A stretch of DNA of 64,000 nt, taken from assembly GCF_000190315.1 (NCBI RefSeq), contig NC_015151.1:1860001-1924000 (forward strand). Reading direction: 5' to 3'. A model generated the notes under the pieces. It was not told where the DNA came from. It saw only the letters and a program-made list of their open reading frames with translations, and did no database searches. The position numbers and the translations under genes are program-made. Position 1 is the first letter of the stretch. Each line of letters begins with the position of its first letter. Shown here piece after piece: positions 5,211 through 59,250 of this stretch. The DNA comes from Vulcanisaeta moutnovskia 768-28 (GTDB lineage: Archaea > Thermoproteota > Thermoprotei > Thermoproteales > Thermocladiaceae).

Positions 5211-5945
5211 GTGAAAGTTTTGGCTCACCCACCGGCTTTGGTTAAGGCATGGGGTGTGATGTTGGGTCTATGGGTTAATCATAGCCCTAACCACCCCCAA
5301 TGCGCCTCTATTCAGCATTCCTCGCAATACCACTATGCAGGCTCTGGATGGTCTGGAAGTACATTATATTATTTCTTTGGAGAAGACACTAATTATGCAA
5401 AAAATACAAATTATATACCATTTGCACCTGTAGATCAACAGAAGAATAAACAATATTCATATTATGGTATATTTTATACATATTGGTGGTTTTCTTTAGA
5501 TAATTCAAATAATTTAGATGTATACTTCTTAGTGAATGGAAACATTTACAATAATCAATTACCAGAGCAATATGATTCAAAATACAAAGCATACGCAATA
5601 CTACCAGAATCACCCTATACATACATCGCACAAAGCTACCAAAATGCATACAAAACAGCATTTGCAGCAGAACTAAGAACAGCATTAAATGAATTTTCAA
5701 AAAGCCCAATAACTTATCCAAGTAGCAATTTTCCATATTCTTTATTCATAAATGGAACTTTGGGATATGCCGAGCAATATGAGAACCAATATTCAATAGG
5801 TAATCCATTAATAGAAAATGTAACTTACTATCAAGGACAGCCCTATGTATTTATTTCTGCGGGATCTGGTGGATCACCTGGATATATGTATTTAGACTGG
5901 GTTATAGGAACATTCGGAGTACCTTATGAAATAACTATTCCATAA
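5211..5945 (+). CDS. Tyr/Asn-rich protein of unknown function, probably exported
   Basis: 244 residues from a GTG start. The body is rich in Tyr, Asn, Ser and Gln (YYFFGEDTNYAKNTNY, YTYIAQSYQNAYKTAF) with few charges, typical of extracellular archaeal proteins. The coding sequence is much more AT-rich than the genes on either side. No family recognised. Codon 1 is uncertain; the hydrophobic stretch near the start (ALVKAWGVMLGLWV) could be a signal segment. It is convergent with the next gene and the two form an atypical-composition island. Confidence 0.55.
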   Translation: MKVLAHPPALVKAWGVMLGLWVNHSPNHPQCASIQHSSQYHYAGSGWSGSTLYYFFGEDTNYAKNTNYIPFAPVDQQKNKQYSYYGIFYTYWWFSLDNSNNLDVYFLVNGNIYNNQLPEQYDSKYKAYAILPESPYTYIAQSYQNAYKTAFAAELRTALNEFSKSPITYPSSNFPYSLFINGTLGYAEQYENQYSIGNPLIENVTYYQGQPYVFISAGSGGSPGYMYLDWVIGTFGVPYEITIP

Positions 5946-8800: not shown

Positions 8801-10073
8801 CGTGGTTAAGCTAGAGCCAGATAGGGAGGCGGAGAATAAGCTCAAGCTACTATGTAGCATATCCTCCAGGCTTTGGAATGAGGTTAACTATGCTAGGAGG
8901 AGGCAGTTCTTTGAGAATAAGAGGGTGGACTTAAAGAACACATACAGGGAGTTCTATGGGAAGTATAAGGCGCTGATAGGTTCAGTCACGGCACAGCAAA
9001 TACTCAATAAGAACAATGAGGCCTGGAAATCCTTCTTCAACCTACTAAAGGCTAGGAAGGAGGGCAGGTTACCGCCGTTCATGAGGAGTGTAAGCCCGCC
9101 AGGCTACAGGAAGAGGTATGGCTCTAGGATATTGTGGGTTGTGCTTAGAAATGACCAGTATAAAGTAGAGAGAAGCAAAATAATCTTAAAAGGATTGGGA
9201 GCTATAGGTAGAATTGAAGTACAATACAAAGGGCTCATTCACATTAAAGGTAAGCAAGGCAGAATGGAGATACGTTACGATCCAGACTCCAGGACTTGGT
9301 ACGCCCATATAACATTTGAAATTTCTGAGAAAGCCGTTAGAGGTGTATGGAGGAAGATACCGGAAGCTCCTAAAGCAAGCTTGAGGGCGGGTATAGATAT
9401 TGGTATTAATAATTTATTTGCCGTATATATAGGGGATGGTAGAGCGTTTTTAGTTAATGGCAGGCCGCTTAAAGCCATTTCTTATTACTGGAAAGCTAGG
9501 ATAGCGAATTATCAGAGTACGCTTAATAGGTATGGATTGAGGACTTCACGTAGACTTAGAATTATGTACAAGAAGTGGAGGAGGCAGGTGAAACATTATA
9601 TAAATACTGCTGTTAGGAGACTTGCTGAAGAGTTATACAATGCTGGCGTATCTACCGTATATATTGGATACCCGAAGATGATTTCTCAGAATAACGGCAA
9701 CTTCAATACTGTACAAACATGGAGTTATGGGTATCTGTTAAAAAGGGTTTCCGAAGTTTTAGAGGAATATGGCGTTAATGTCGTTTTTGTGAATGAAGCA
9801 TATACATCATCATATTGCCCATTTCATGGCAATAAATGCGGAAAGAGAATAGCTAGAGGATTGTTCAAATGTACATCTCTAAACAGAGTATTCAATGCTG
9901 ATGTTGTTGGTGCGTACAACATTCTGGTCAAGGGAGACACCATAACCCCAAGTCCCCGAGATGGGATAGGGGCAACACGCCCGAGACCGGGCGTGGGGCT
10001 GAACCCCGCAAAGGCGGGGAATGTAGCCCCAAACCTCCTCGCCTTTGCAACACCAAGAACCCTCACCCTTTAG
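8787..10073 (+). CDS. tnpB: TnpB-family RNA-guided nuclease of the IS element, non-canonical RuvC site
   Basis: 428 residues from the ATG at 8787 inside tnpA. N-terminal WED/REC-like half, then the RuvC part: AGIDIGINNLF (first Asp), a Cys/His finger CPFHGNKCG...FKC, and NADVVGAYNIL (last Asp). The second RuvC strand reads VYIGYPKMI, so the Glu expected there is absent; the nearest acidic residue is in FVNEAYTSS just before the finger. The last 50 residues are the translation of the structured 3' RNA region and are probably not a protein domain. Confidence 0.9.
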   Translation: MKRCSVVKLEPDREAENKLKLLCSISSRLWNEVNYARRRQFFENKRVDLKNTYREFYGKYKALIGSVTAQQILNKNNEAWKSFFNLLKARKEGRLPPFMRSVSPPGYRKRYGSRILWVVLRNDQYKVERSKIILKGLGAIGRIEVQYKGLIHIKGKQGRMEIRYDPDSRTWYAHITFEISEKAVRGVWRKIPEAPKASLRAGIDIGINNLFAVYIGDGRAFLVNGRPLKAISYYWKARIANYQSTLNRYGLRTSRRLRIMYKKWRRQVKHYINTAVRRLAEELYNAGVSTVYIGYPKMISQNNGNFNTVQTWSYGYLLKRVSEVLEEYGVNVVFVNEAYTSSYCPFHGNKCGKRIARGLFKCTSLNRVFNADVVGAYNILVKGDTITPSPRDGIGATRPRPGVGLNPAKAGNVAPNLLAFATPRTLTL

Positions 10074-13554: not shown

Positions 13555-14091
13555 GTGGGCTATTTCTACGGAGTATTCATTAGGGATTTAGACGTAACGT
13601 CACTAATTAGGGCATTACCCGTGATGCCTGTGGAGAGGGAGAACATGCACATAACCATTACATACATTGGTGATGATAGACCAAGTCAGGGGGTTGACGA
13701 TAGGGTCGGGGTAAGCATAGGCTCAATGCCGTGCTTCAGGGCTAAGCTAGGGCAATTAATATTATTGCCAAGTGTCCTAAGGCCCAAGGTACTTGCCGTG
13801 GAGATCATTAATAATAAGCAATTGAGTAAGTTGAGGTCAATCATAGTGAGTATATTAAGAGACTCAGGCATTTCAATGAATGATAAGTACTCCGGTGAAT
13901 TCAAGCCACACATAACGATTGCATACATAAAATCAAAGAAGGTAAATCCGCAGAATATACTTGAGACAACCCGCGAAATGGGAATCGAGAAGGAACTCCT
14001 GAACAAATCACTACTAATTGAAAACGTATCCCTAATACTAGCCAGGGGAAACAACTACAGGGAAATATCAAGGCATAAACTGCAATGCTAA
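13555..14091 (+). CDS. thpR: RNA 2',3'-cyclic phosphodiesterase (LigT/ThpR family)
   Basis: 178 residues from GTG. The two HxTx catalytic motifs of the 2H phosphoesterase family are present: HITITYIG at residues 32-39 and HITIAY at about 118-123. The family opens 2',3'-cyclic phosphates on RNA or tRNA ends and was first described as 2'-5' RNA ligase. The length matches archaeal ThpR. It stands alone in its direction. Confidence 0.9.
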   Translation: MGYFYGVFIRDLDVTSLIRALPVMPVERENMHITITYIGDDRPSQGVDDRVGVSIGSMPCFRAKLGQLILLPSVLRPKVLAVEIINNKQLSKLRSIIVSILRDSGISMNDKYSGEFKPHITIAYIKSKKVNPQNILETTREMGIEKELLNKSLLIENVSLILARGNNYREISRHKLQC

Positions 14092-14104: not shown

Positions 14105-14476
14105 TTACGGGATCCTAATCACGGGGTCGGCATTATGGAAACCAATTAACCTAATTACAAATCGAGTGTTTGATAACGGACCAAGCAAGTAACGGCATTT
14201 TTTGAATGGACAAGCACTTGCCCTATGTTTCCTTAATTTGTTATCGCTGTAGCTCTCGGTCCTAACGAGTATTAGGTCACCATCACGAGTGTAAATAACT
14301 CTGTAAGGATAATGAATGAGGCCATCGTTCCATTTATCCCTAATAATAAGCTCAACATAATCAGCCATAGTCAAATCAACAAATAGGGAACTAATACTAC
14401 CCTGCTTATTATCAACGCGGTACTCCCTAATTACTAAGCCGCAACTATTAATATCCCTAACGACTTGCATTACCAC
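14105..14476 (-). CDS. hypothetical protein
   Basis: 123 residues, mostly beta-strand, with a cysteine pair in ACPFKKCRYLLG. No family recognised. It overlaps the upstream gene by 20 bases, so the two are translated together; the ATG at 14470 is an alternative start. Confidence 0.55.
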   Translation of the reverse strand: MVMQVVRDINSCGLVIREYRVDNKQGSISSLFVDLTMADYVELIIRDKWNDGLIHYPYRVIYTRDGDLILVRTESYSDNKLRKHRASACPFKKCRYLLGPLSNTRFVIRLIGFHNADPVIRIP

Positions 14477-15158
14477 TCACTAATGAAGCTCTAAATGACT
14501 CCCAATTCTTCAATAATTCATTAAACTCGGCAATCAAATTCCTCAACCTAGCCCTACGATAAGCCCTCAACTCATACTTCAAATCCTCATTAAGGTAACT
14601 AATCCTTCCCTTAATCGAATTAATTATGGCATCGACGATGTGCAGAGCATCATTGACGCTCACGTGAATCGAATAAACACGAATAAAGGCACCCCTATAC
14701 CTAGAAAAGATTTCCTTCCACCTATTCACATTAAAGCAGACCTCACGGCCAATCCATATATGTCCATATTTAAGGAAGCACTTCCTAATCTCCTTATGAA
14801 ACCTTACTGATATGCCTACATCATTAGGAACCTTAAACTCCAAAATGTATAATATGGCATCACCGCCTCCACCACCTGGAGATACCTTACTAATTAATTG
14901 ATTAAATAATGCCGGTAGAAACCTGGTTCCGTCACCACCAACACTAATGTCCACTATATAGGGCCTGGAATTAACGAAATAACCCTTAACAATAGCATAA
15001 TCACTACCCATCACTTGAGTCCTAACAACATTACTACCATCAACAACCCTAATACCCATAGCATCATAAACCGCAATAAACGGCTTATACCCGGTTAAGT
15101 ACGGCATTATGAATTCCACATACTGACTACCCCCTGATCCAACGAGCCCTAACTCCAT
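14457..15158 (-). CDS. hypothetical protein, first gene of a two-gene unit
   Basis: About 233 residues from the ATG at 15158 (MELGLVGSGGSQYVEF). Strand-rich first half (IAVYDAMGIRVVDGSNVVR, IVDISVGGDGTRFLP) and a helical basic C-terminus (ELRAYRRARLRNLIAEFNEL). A reverse-strand TATA-like CTTAAAAT about 25 bases upstream supports this start over the ATG at 15182. Function unknown. It is divergent from the P-loop ATPase at 15476. Confidence 0.55.
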   Translation of the reverse strand: MELGLVGSGGSQYVEFIMPYLTGYKPFIAVYDAMGIRVVDGSNVVRTQVMGSDYAIVKGYFVNSRPYIVDISVGGDGTRFLPALFNQLISKVSPGGGGGDAILYILEFKVPNDVGISVRFHKEIRKCFLKYGHIWIGREVCFNVNRWKEIFSRYRGAFIRVYSIHVSVNDALHIVDAIINSIKGRISYLNEDLKYELRAYRRARLRNLIAEFNELLKNWESFRASLVSGNASR

Positions 15159-15404
15159 AATATAATTACACAATAAGCGCATTTTAAGTTTATTGAATCA
15201 TGCACATGTACGTAAAAATACCGTGTGCAGGGCATGCACTGAAAAAGGTGCAATTATGATGCTTACAAGTTTTTGTCAATAGATACACTGGATATGGTGC
15301 ATCGAGGAAGCAATGATAATCATTACTTAAAGGAACCAGGGGTTTAATAACCATGGTGACTAGGCATGTAGGCTTGATAGTAATTAATGCCAACGCATGA
15401 ACCG

Positions 15405-15475: not shown

Positions 15476-16333
15476 ATGAAGGTGGAAGGAAAAATAATGA
15501 GGATACTACTTGACCTAGGCGACAGGCCATTAACAGTGATAGGACCGCCAGGTTCTGGTAAAACCACAATGATAACTGCATTAGGACTGATGAGGCATAA
15601 GTTAGTGGGTTCGGCCGTATCTTATGTGACACAAAAGTCAAGTGATGCAGTAGGGATTATAATAAAACCATCAATACCTTGGGCATGCATACGTGATAAT
15701 CTATTCTTAATACTCGATTCCTATGAGGAATTAAGTACGAGACCTGGAATAACAATACTAACTTCCACGGCATATAGATATAAAACCTATAATAGCTATA
15801 TAAAATACTTGGGGTACCTGGCTAAGAATCCACGTAATACACATGCAGCATGGCTTTTGGAACGAATAATGCTACTACGTAATATAATAATTGAACCAAG
15901 CAATAATAATGAAAACAAGGGAATAACCACAATAATCCAGAGCAGAGACATTAGGGGAGTATACTTAGCAACAGCCCTAATACTCAACAGCATGTGTCAC
16001 CAAGGCAATAATAACGTGCTAATATTAGATGACGTAACAATACTGCCCATAAGAGACGATGCACTACTAAGGATAATTAGGATGACGAGAGGACTCACAA
16101 ACGTATGGATGGTGTTACACAGTATTGGTAAATTAAACATTGAAGACCTAAATACGCCGACAATAATAACAAGCCATAGTGGACCAGCCAAGTCACTATC
16201 AAGATTTAAAGAAATACTAAGCCAGATAAAGCCAGGGGAAGCGCTCTACATGGGTATTAATGAGCAACTGAAAATAAAAATACACGAAATAAAGGAACTA
16301 CGCAACAAACTGCTAAACGAAATAACGCAATAG
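15476..16333 (+). CDS. P-loop ATPase of unknown function
   Basis: 285 residues with a clear Walker A (VIGPPGSGKTTM, about residues 22-33) and Walker B (NVLILDDVTIL, about 183-193), then TNVWMVLHSIGK and PTIITSHSG, an arrangement seen in HerA/VirB4-like and related ATPases. The N-terminal part is short, so it is a bare ATPase domain. The start is taken at the ATG at 15476, and TAG at 16331-16333 is followed at once by the structured region. Exact family not recognised. Confidence 0.7.
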   Translation: MKVEGKIMRILLDLGDRPLTVIGPPGSGKTTMITALGLMRHKLVGSAVSYVTQKSSDAVGIIIKPSIPWACIRDNLFLILDSYEELSTRPGITILTSTAYRYKTYNSYIKYLGYLAKNPRNTHAAWLLERIMLLRNIIIEPSNNNENKGITTIIQSRDIRGVYLATALILNSMCHQGNNNVLILDDVTILPIRDDALLRIIRMTRGLTNVWMVLHSIGKLNIEDLNTPTIITSHSGPAKSLSRFKEILSQIKPGEALYMGINEQLKIKIHEIKELRNKLLNEITQ

Positions 16334-16475
16334 TCCATCATTATTACATCCACGGCAGGCAAACCCGTTAAAAATCCCCTTCCTCTTTTCAATCCCCCCG
16401 CTCAGGGGGAGGAGGAAGGAGAGGATGATGGATACCGAGGGACTGAGCCGATGGCTTAGTTCTCGGATATCCTGA
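16334..16475 (+). ncRNA. candidate structured RNA, block 1
   Basis: Directly after the ATPase stop. Pairings seen: TCCATCAT (16334-16341) with ATGATGGA (16425-16432); CCTTCCTC (16378-16385) with GAGGAAGG (16412-16419); CCCCC (16395-16399) with GGGGG (16405-16409); and an 18 bp hairpin with two small bulges from 16431 to 16471 (GATA/TATC, CCGAG/CTCGG, ACTGAGCC/GGCTTAGT with one G-U). No known family recognised; a box C/D reading (ATGATGG, CTGA, CGATGG, CTGA) also fits loosely. Strand is inferred from the neighbouring genes. Confidence 0.5.
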
Positions 16476-16532
16476 GCTGTATAGTATGATGAATCCCTGG
16501 AAAATGATTAATGATTTAAAAGAAAGGCTGAC

Positions 16533-16646
16533 ATCCGTCACCTGGATATTCATGGGGTGGGACCCGCCCCACCACTATGCTAGTGATAAGGGGCGGTGAC
16601 TGCGGAGTAGTCCGTAGTCCTGCCCCGTGGTATCCAGGTGACGGAT
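16533..16646 (+). ncRNA. candidate structured RNA, block 2: three-way junction
   Basis: A continuous 16 bp stem pairs 16533-16548 (ATCCGTCACCTGGATA) with 16631-16646. It continues as CATGGGG (16551-16557) with CCCCGTG (16623-16629). Inside are two hairpins: CCGCCCC (16564-16570) with GGGGCGG (16590-16596), capped by CACTA/TAGTG; and GACTGCGGA (16598-16606) with TCCGTAGTC (16611-16619), one G-U pair. Every arm pairs almost perfectly, so this is a genuine fold. It ends one base before the ATG of the RuvC-only protein. Confidence 0.65.
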
Positions 16647-17417
16647 ATGGATAGGGATAGGAAAGGGAAGGACGGGTATGTACCTGCCGTGGATGTAACG
16701 GCAATGGGCATTGATGTTGGTGTAAGGCGTTTTGTTGTTGCCTTTGTTGGTAGTAGGGCTAGGTTGCTTAATGATCTAGCGGTTGTATATGCTAGGCAGA
16801 ATGGCGTTTCGTTAGTGCCGTTAGGTATATATGATGCTATGACTAGGGCCTATGTAGTTAGTATTAATTATCCAGGTACAGATAAATACCGTGGTGTCGA
16901 GTTAACGAGTAACATCATCAGTAAAACACTAGGTGCCATAGTAAGGGCTATGCATAGTGTACAGAGGGTTCATAACACGTTAATCGGTCTAGTTCTTGAG
17001 GATCTCAGGCAGTTCAGTGGATATAAGCATGACTTAGTCAGGGCGAAGGCTATTTGGGATCTAATTACAAGCAGGTTTAGTGAGAGTGTTAGTAAATGCC
17101 CTGCTGTTAAGGTTTCTTGGTTCTGGATGAGTTATAGGGGCGAGGTAATCATGCCTACTAGGGATTCAATACCCATAGTGCTTGTTGAGCCTGAGTATAC
17201 GAGTAGTATATGCCCGAGATGTGGTACTTACTTAGGTAGGGTTAGGGATAAGGTGGTGTGTAATTACTGTGGCTTTGAGGGTGATAGGGATGTTATTGGT
17301 GCTATAAATGTGGCGCTACGAGGATTTTTAATACTAATGAAATGCGTTAGAGAGGGTATACTAGGGGTCACCCGAAGGCTCAGGGCTGGCTCTGTAAATT
17401 TCATATGCCTTAATTAA
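16647..17417 (+). CDS. RuvC-only TnpB-like nuclease, N-terminal half absent
   Basis: 256 residues from ATG 16647 (a GTG at 16638 adds three). RuvC-I MGIDVGVRRFVV begins at about residue 21, RuvC-II is GLVLEDLRQF, a zinc finger CPRCG...CNYCG follows, and RuvC-III is GDRDVIGAIN. All three catalytic acids (Asp, Glu, Asp) are present. Typical TnpB has about 190 residues of WED/REC before RuvC; here there are about 20, and the RuvC-I to II interval is only 95. No tnpA or right-end hairpin is present, and the 3' end overlaps cbiZ, so the gene seems fixed in place rather than mobile. Confidence 0.75.
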   Translation: MDRDRKGKDGYVPAVDVTAMGIDVGVRRFVVAFVGSRARLLNDLAVVYARQNGVSLVPLGIYDAMTRAYVVSINYPGTDKYRGVELTSNIISKTLGAIVRAMHSVQRVHNTLIGLVLEDLRQFSGYKHDLVRAKAIWDLITSRFSESVSKCPAVKVSWFWMSYRGEVIMPTRDSIPIVLVEPEYTSSICPRCGTYLGRVRDKVVCNYCGFEGDRDVIGAINVALRGFLILMKCVREGILGVTRRLRAGSVNFICLN

Positions 17418-30521: not shown

Positions 30522-30845
30522 ATGGGTGATTGTTTACCGATTACTGTTAAGGTGTATATTAATAATCAAGTGCTTATTCCTGCCAATGTTGTTAGGTGTC
30601 TTGGTGTTGAGAGTGTTGACTTTATTGATGTTATGATTAGGTTTGGCAGTAGGTTGGTTAGGATAAACAATGTGAGACTTCTCAAGCCAGCCCGTAGTAG
30701 GGGCTCAAGTAGGCAATTCACGATTCCTAGGGAAATTAGGGAAGAGTTTGGTATTGAACCTTTGAGTATAATTGAGTTGGTTGGTGTTAAATACGTTGGA
30801 TGTTCGATTGCTGCTTGGAATAGAAAGACTTATAAATTAAGTTGA
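30522..30845 (+). CDS. tandem-AbrB-fold protein, copy 1
   Basis: 107 residues from ATG 30522, fixed by TTTTAAATAT about 25 bases upstream. Two swapped-hairpin halves: VYINNQVLIPANVVRCLGVE and SRQFTIPREIREEFGIEPL, each like half of an AbrB/SpoVT DNA-binding domain. Three other copies occur in this window (31875, 56774 reverse, 58915). Likely a transcription factor or antitoxin-like DNA-binding protein; it is followed after 13 bases by a small helical partner. Confidence 0.7.
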   Translation: MGDCLPITVKVYINNQVLIPANVVRCLGVESVDFIDVMIRFGSRLVRINNVRLLKPARSRGSSRQFTIPREIREEFGIEPLSIIELVGVKYVGCSIAAWNRKTYKLS

Positions 30846-31874: not shown

Positions 31875-32191
31875 ATGCCTAGCTCAAAGCCCGTTAACGG
31901 ATTCCCTTATAGGACTAGGATTTACATTAATAGTCAAGTCCTTTTGCCGGTTAGTTTGGTTAGGGCTCTCGGTATTGAGTGGGCTAGGTTTGCGGACATA
32001 GTTATTAAGCATAATGACAAGATCATTGTGTTGAGGGTGTTTTACTACTAAGGACTAGGCACACGGCAGGTAGGCAATTCGCAATACCGAGGGAAGTAAG
32101 GGAGAAGTACGGGATAAAGCCACTAGACGAGGTTGAGGTTGTCGAGATTAAACCCTCTGTAAGTGCCTTGGCTAGGGATTATGGTGAGTAA
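31875..32191 (+). pseudogene. tandem-AbrB-fold protein, copy 2, frameshifted
   Basis: ATG 31875 opens PSSKPVNGFPYRTRIYINSQ VLLPVSLVRALGIEWARFADIVI, nearly identical in DNA to the copy at 58915 over 40 bases. The frame breaks in a T run near 32041: with one more T it continues VLLLRTRHTAGRQFAIPREVREKYGIKPLDEVEV to a TAA at 32189-32191. A single-base deletion in a homopolymer has thus silenced the second half. Confidence 0.8.
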
Positions 32192-58914: not shown

Positions 58915-59250
58915 ATGAGGGCGAAGCCAGTTGATGAACTTCCCTATAGGACTAAGATCTACGTTAATAGTCAAGTCCTTTTGCCGGTTAGTTTGGTTAG
59001 GGCTCTTGGTTTTGAGTGGGTTAGGTATGCTGACGTAACGATTAGGCATGGTGATGATACCATAGTCATAAACAACACTAAACTCCTAAGGACTAGGCAC
59101 ACCGCCAGTAGGCAATTCACAATACCAAGGGAAATAAGGGAGAAGTACGGAATAAAGCCACTAGATGAAATAGAAATACTGGCAATAAAACCAAAACAGG
59201 CGAAGGAAACAAAGACCGAGATTGAAGCTAAGACTAATCCCATTGGATGA
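58915..59250 (+). CDS. tandem-AbrB-fold protein, copy 4
   Basis: 111 residues from ATG 58915, supported by TTTTTATATTA at 58880-58890. TKIYVNSQVLLPVSLVRALGFEWVRYADVTI and SRQFTIPREIREKYGIKPLDEIEIL. Its DNA is nearly identical to the copy at 31875 over the first half, marking a recent duplication. Followed by an Lys/Glu/Thr-rich tail. No small partner gene follows. Confidence 0.75.
   Translation: MRAKPVDELPYRTKIYVNSQVLLPVSLVRALGFEWVRYADVTIRHGDDTIVINNTKLLRTRHTASRQFTIPREIREKYGIKPLDEIEILAIKPKQAKETKTEIEAKTNPIG

Follow-up and report, generated by a model that had tools for sequence, protein, structure and literature searches.

What is the folded element that lies immediately ahead of a gene for a stand-alone RuvC nuclease in the archaeon Vulcanisaeta moutnovskia 768-28? 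The window analyzed here is a 64,000-nucleotide stretch of its genome (NC_015151.1, positions 1,860,001 to 1,924,000 of the forward strand; coordinates below are those of the window). A first-pass annotation made from the sequence described positions 16533-16646 as a three-way-junction RNA belonging to no recognized family, a description with which the predicted fold, covariation and the lack of an Rfam match all agree. Its boundaries are too narrow, covering only the last domain of an RNA that spans approximately 16333-16709, and the connection with the RuvC gene was overlooked. Positions 16533-16646 are the 3′ domain of a structured RNA of approximately 370 nucleotides that is conserved in the genus Vulcanisaeta and whose closing helix reaches into the coding sequence of the RuvC gene.

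The domain recognized at the outset, here called P3, comprises the following parts.

16533-16646, + strand: P3 three-way junction, with the outer stem formed by 16533-16548 and 16631-16646
16564-16570 with 16590-16596, + strand: P3 core helix, CCGCCCC paired with GGGGCGG
16599-16618, + strand: second hairpin of P3

The minimum free energy (MFE) predicted for 16533-16646 is -79.9 kcal/mol against a mean of -41.6 for shuffled sequences (z -11.3), a value equaled by none of 200 shuffles; the reverse complement folds more weakly (z -8.0). This fold bears out the 16-base-pair (bp) closing stem, its continuation and the two inner hairpins, with the correction that the continuation is predicted to contain 11 pairs and not the 7 bp first assigned to it. 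The statement that tRNA, SRP RNA and RNase P RNA do not fit also stands. No tRNA or tmRNA is found, and no Rfam family, including those of SRP RNA, RNase P RNA, HEARO and RAGATH-18, matches the window at its gathering score; permissive matches in 16400-16750 reach at most 19 bits and remain sub-threshold.

From 5′ to 3′, the complete RNA consists of the 5′ arm of a closing helix (P0), the hairpin P1, a kink-turn-like hairpin, a box C/D-like unit, P3, the start codon of the RuvC gene and the 3′ arm of P0.

16333-16359, + strand: P0 closing helix, 5′ arm, with core TTACATCCACGGCAGG at 16344-16359, directly after the stop codon of a P-loop ATPase gene
16363-16368 with 16672-16677, + strand: helix P0b, ACCCGT paired with ACGGGT, from duplex and MFE prediction
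16375-16422, + strand: P1 hairpin, with a pyrimidine-rich 5′ arm and a purine-rich 3′ arm
16423-16476, + strand: kink-turn-like hairpin, with C-box-like TGATGG, D-box-like CTGA and loop GCCGATGGC
16487-16531, + strand: box C/D-like unit, with C (TGATGA, 16487), D′ (ATGA, 16504), C′ (ATGATT, 16511) and D (CTGA, 16528)
16647-17417, + strand: stand-alone Cas12/TnpB-type RuvC gene (256 amino acids, zinc finger), with its ATG at the foot of P3
16683-16709, + strand: P0 closing helix, 3′ arm, with core CCTGCCGTGGATGTAA at 16683-16698, within RuvC codons 13-21

P0 came to light through the reverse complementarity between the stretch that follows the ATPase stop codon, TTACATCCACGGCAGG, and the beginning of the RuvC coding sequence, and the same helix arises in unconstrained folding of 16333-16710 (z -13.7). 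That box C/D RNA does not fit, as the first-pass annotation held, is correct for the 114 bases of P3 but not for the sequence just upstream, where 16423-16531 carries kink-turn-like and box C/D-like elements. The box positions of the C/D-like unit are conserved in eight genomes, whereas the intervening stretches vary; D′ and C′ are degenerate. The TATA-like ATTTAAAAG at 16513-16521, earlier offered as a promoter, sits in the C′-to-D stretch of this unit, and relatives carry TGATTAAATG, TGATTAACCA or TGACTGAAAG at the same site; given this variation, the promoter reading is unsupported. A role of the unit as a methylation guide was likewise considered and rejected: its best rRNA matches equal those of shuffled guides, and no target is shared in six genomes.

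Comparison with homologues, one of the checks proposed alongside the original description, reveals that in seven genomes the outer stem of P3 is kept while nearly all of its bases change. All 112 cells (seven genomes by 16 register pairs) are paired and double changes occur at 16 of the 16 pairs, against at most 75% paired in column shuffles and at most 40% in slid registers; such covariation counts are not probabilities, as related sequences are not independent, and the registers of P0 and P3 were set by hand. The arms of G004, G005 and G007 share little with those of G000 beyond their complementarity. A conserved position with lost complementarity, the pattern that would speak against the junction, is not seen in these seven genomes. 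The exception is G011, which keeps the core CCGCCCC/GGGGCGG, has an imperfect outer stem and is predicted to form an alternative local hairpin.

P0 is 97.2% paired (six genomes, 18 pairs), with double changes at eight pairs, versus at most 94.4% in shuffles and 32-46% in slid registers, and its arms are complementary in all eight genomes despite their differing sequences. In G011 the P0 duplex energy (-60.0) is no better than the top value obtained in 500 shuffles, to which it is equal (mean -43.6, standard deviation 5.0), because the sequence is G+C-rich. P1 is paired in all eight genomes, with a wholly different sequence in G011, and RNAalifold finds 23 pairs in the kink-turn and C/D part, 12 of them with changes on both sides. 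Among the non-Watson-Crick cells of P0, P1 and P3, G.T outnumbers A.C by 55 to 6, a bias that points to a sense-strand RNA as the selected molecule, and hence to selection maintaining an RNA of the RuvC-coding strand.

The junction domain is about doubled in G005 and G007, where P3 measures 31 and 25 bp and extra long hairpins are present while the upstream elements are unchanged in size (loci L031, at approximately 5290-5600, and L033, where the domain precedes the RuvC gene on the reverse strand).

The same series of elements precedes the RuvC gene in G000, G001, G002, G004, G005, G006, G007 and G011; orthologues of the gene itself occur in G001-G007 and G011 of the genus. All eight genomes whose locus contains a full-length RuvC gene have the RNA, which is absent from the rest of the class; a model of its kink-turn and C/D part (R1) matches only these eight among 81 genomes of the class. 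In G003 the RNA and the RuvC gene start were lost together: a breakpoint with unrelated sequence, explained by a rearrangement or by an assembly join, leaves neither the upstream region nor the initial ~14 codons. G008-G010 contain neither the RNA nor a close RuvC orthologue. The V. moutnovskia genome (one contig, 2,298,983 bases) holds a single copy of the RNA. Searches with a profile of the protein return full-length relatives in the genus only, their matches elsewhere being confined to the C-terminal end of ordinary TnpB; phages and plasmids yield only the zinc-finger end of ordinary TnpB, and viral contigs no relatives.

The protein encoded behind the RNA matches PF07282 in Pfam and, in part, guided_TnpB and Cas12f2, and a profile search of solved structures returns Cas12f and TnpB. 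Its AlphaFold model is weak (predicted local distance difference test score (pLDDT) 59, predicted template-modeling score 0.67), and Foldseek alone finds no match to it at E 0.001. In a VIA structural alignment, residues 12-238 of this weak model align with the RuvC domains of Cas12a3, Cas12a, TnpB and Cas12f and with RuvC resolvases. The TnpB alignment covers residues 184-378 of 8h1j (Z 9.1), and in ISDra2 TnpB the WED domain occupies residues 1-12 and 117-176, REC residues 13-116, and RuvC begins at 185 (PMC10097598). The protein therefore corresponds to the RuvC/TNB part only. Its catalytic triad is intact, with D23, E118 and D213/D215 invariant in six orthologues (motifs GxDxG, E(D/N)L and GD(R/A)D), and the CCCC zinc finger (TNB; CPRCG...CNYCGF) is kept except for one cysteine lost in G011.

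Nonsynonymous (dN) and synonymous (dS) divergence among close orthologues, ~0.09-0.22 versus ~0.5-1.3 (dN/dS ~0.15), indicates that the RuvC gene is under purifying selection. The frame is broken in three drafts, G005, G006 and G007, in which neighboring genes are frameshifted too; together with the dN/dS of intact copies this makes sequencing errors likely, and we reject the idea of a pseudogene. Translation could begin at ATG 16647 or GTG 16638, and the frame ends at 17417. Six genomes have the ATG at the foot of P3, in frame in each case, so that codons 13-21 are most likely both translated and base-paired; G004 and G011 lack an ATG at this point and would need a GTG start.

The surrounding genes help to define the unit. 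Their order is 2-oxoacid ferredoxin oxidoreductase beta, a 2H phosphoesterase, two unknown genes, the P-loop ATPase, the RNA, RuvC and, on the opposite strand, CbiZ.

15476-16333, + strand: P-loop ATPase gene, upstream of the RNA

Within the genus, the ATPase occurs only in genomes with the RNA. A deletion in G011 removed the ATPase and one neighbor, leaving only C-terminal ATPase codons before P0 (a remnant recognized by eye), while the RNA and RuvC remain. This indicates that the RNA-RuvC pair is the conserved unit, to which the ATPase is dispensable. The AlphaFold model of the ATPase is too poor to use (pLDDT 39.5).

What, then, might the RNA do? We tentatively favor, at only just less than an even chance, the view that this RNA is dedicated to the RuvC protein as its partner, as omegaRNA is to TnpB, and that L7Ae occupies the kink-turns. 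We infer this from the TnpB precedent, from the retention of RNA and RuvC together, and from the way in which the RNA overlaps the coding sequence. The RuvC domain of TnpB is needed to cut omegaRNA from its own mRNA (PMC10278001), and TnpB contacts omegaRNA through RuvC (PMC10097598). In such a complex, the large RNA and L7Ae would supply a scaffold in place of the missing WED and REC domains, and P0 and P3 would set the ends of the mature RNA. Because P0 reaches into codons 13-21, a single transcript would serve as mRNA or as RNA precursor, not both, a situation also seen in TnpB. That the locus exemplifies a new class of RNA-dependent nucleases, descended from TnpB/Cas12 and reduced to RuvC, in which a large L7Ae-bound RNA that shares a helix with the nuclease's own coding sequence has taken the place of the WED/REC lobes, strikes us as rather unlikely.

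Several observations weigh against an RNA partner. No guide segment is recognized in the RNA, which lies at the 5′ end of the RuvC gene, whereas TnpB has its omegaRNA at the 3′ end of the gene. Also absent are the WED and REC domains, which in TnpB hold much of the omegaRNA and the target: the RuvC-I motif is found already at residues 21-25, and no open frame upstream could encode them. The RNA-RuvC pair is moreover confined to one genus, and a cis-acting leader would account for the same sequence data.

Such a leader of the RuvC mRNA is the main rival, and sequence alone does not separate it from an RNA partner. Here the start codon would be enclosed between P0 and P3, which would block translation or set its timing, with L7Ae on the kink-turns setting expression. 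In six genomes the start codon falls 0-4 bases after the foot of P3, and codons 13-21 are base-paired in P0. Kink-turns, whether in a leader or within a coding sequence, allow L7Ae to repress mRNAs, and the Sulfolobus l7ae mRNA is a precedent for such control (PMC5539422). The enlargement of P3 to 25-31 bp and the additional hairpins in G005 and G007 would, however, be needless for simple start-codon blocking. Furthermore, with ~370 nucleotides and four domains, the RNA far exceeds known archaeal leaders in size and domain number. On balance a leader is a plausible explanation, with a chance distinctly short of even.

An independent non-coding RNA gene, namely a box C/D-type ribonucleoprotein RNA with extra domains that lies ahead of the RuvC gene by chance, would agree with the conservation of kink-turn-like elements and C/D boxes in eight genomes. 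We consider it improbable, as the 3′ arm of P0 falls within the RuvC coding sequence, RNA and RuvC were retained together in G011 after the neighboring deletion, and the inter-box stretches are unconserved, with rRNA matches no better than those of shuffles. Finally, inverted repeats acting as DNA (transposon ends or a cruciform) are highly improbable: long, near-perfect repeats do lie beside a gene of transposon origin, but they form a single copy at a conserved genomic position, and the excess of G.T over A.C on this strand, which DNA pairing would not favor, strongly disfavors them.

Should the dedicated partner prove correct, the locus would illustrate the extent to which the protein part of an RNA-guided nuclease can be reduced once its tasks pass to RNA and a host RNA-binding protein; were it only a leader, it would still be an unusually large archaeal regulatory RNA with a gene start within a covarying helix. 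Both readings are directly testable, since the assemblies include genomes of Vulcanisaeta isolates.

Other features of the window are recorded here. Two genus-conserved genes beside the ATPase and the RNA, at 14457-15182 and 14105-14476 (both - strand; 241 and 123 amino acids, no Pfam match), may be part of the same module. A gene at 13555-14091 (+ strand), the fourth one upstream of the RNA, encodes a 2H phosphoesterase/2′-5′ RNA ligase-like protein (PF13563) retained in all syntenic genomes, including G011. Approximately 7 kb upstream, 9771-9980 (+ strand) encodes the C-terminal zinc-finger region of an ordinary TnpB-like protein, within a 443-codon open frame. Three related stretches (30708-30754, 32069-32115 and 59107-59153) encode RQF(T/A)IPREIRE-like peptides and are perhaps AbrB/VapB-type antitoxin paralogues.

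Among known systems, archaeal box C/D sRNAs share with this RNA the boxes C, D′, C′ and D in order and the kink-turns; here, in contrast, the inter-box stretches are unconserved, rRNA matches are at chance level and the unit is embedded in a far larger RNA. The L7Ae-controlled leaders of Sulfolobus l7ae and nop5 likewise carry kink-turn motifs in an archaeal mRNA leader; the present RNA differs in being much larger, with several domains and a closing helix that extends into the coding sequence. TIGR-Tas (TasR) also combines a RuvC nuclease with box C/D-type RNA features (PMC12045711), whereas the present protein has no Nop match in Pfam, no repeat/spacer array near its locus, and a RuvC of the TnpB type with a zinc finger. 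Unlike CRISPR type V systems (Cas12f), the locus has no array-like direct repeats in a scan of the window near 16 kb. In IscB systems the gene for the RuvC-containing nuclease is, as here, immediately preceded by a structured RNA, the omegaRNA (HEARO); IscB belongs to another RuvC lineage, and the present locus has no HNH domain and no HEARO match in Rfam.

TnpB with its omegaRNA/reRNA (IS200/IS605, IS607) and Cas12f share with the present protein the RuvC D, E and D residues and the CCCC zinc finger, and they too have a structured RNA overlapping or beside the nuclease gene. They differ in that here WED/REC are absent, the RNA is upstream, it contains kink-turn and C/D-like modules and no guide is recognized; and whereas TnpB is carried by an insertion sequence, the gene here is a single syntenic copy with no TnpA found beside it. 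In view of WED/REC, RNA position and mobility, we do not assign the locus to TnpB/OMEGA; nor do we assign it to TIGR-Tas, given the lack of a Nop domain and an array, or to the box C/D guides, given the lack of a guide match. A literature search, in which subscription journals are thinly covered, returned no paper with both Vulcanisaeta and TnpB and no description of the RNA or the locus. IS607 TnpB forms an RNA-protein pair with RAGATH-18 RNA, which may contain a kink-turn; its protein has ~390 amino acids and its gene lies upstream of the RNA (PMC11061315). Set beside these systems, the Vulcanisaeta RNA constitutes a family without an Rfam model, and the RNA-RuvC pair is a candidate for an undescribed RNA-protein machine.
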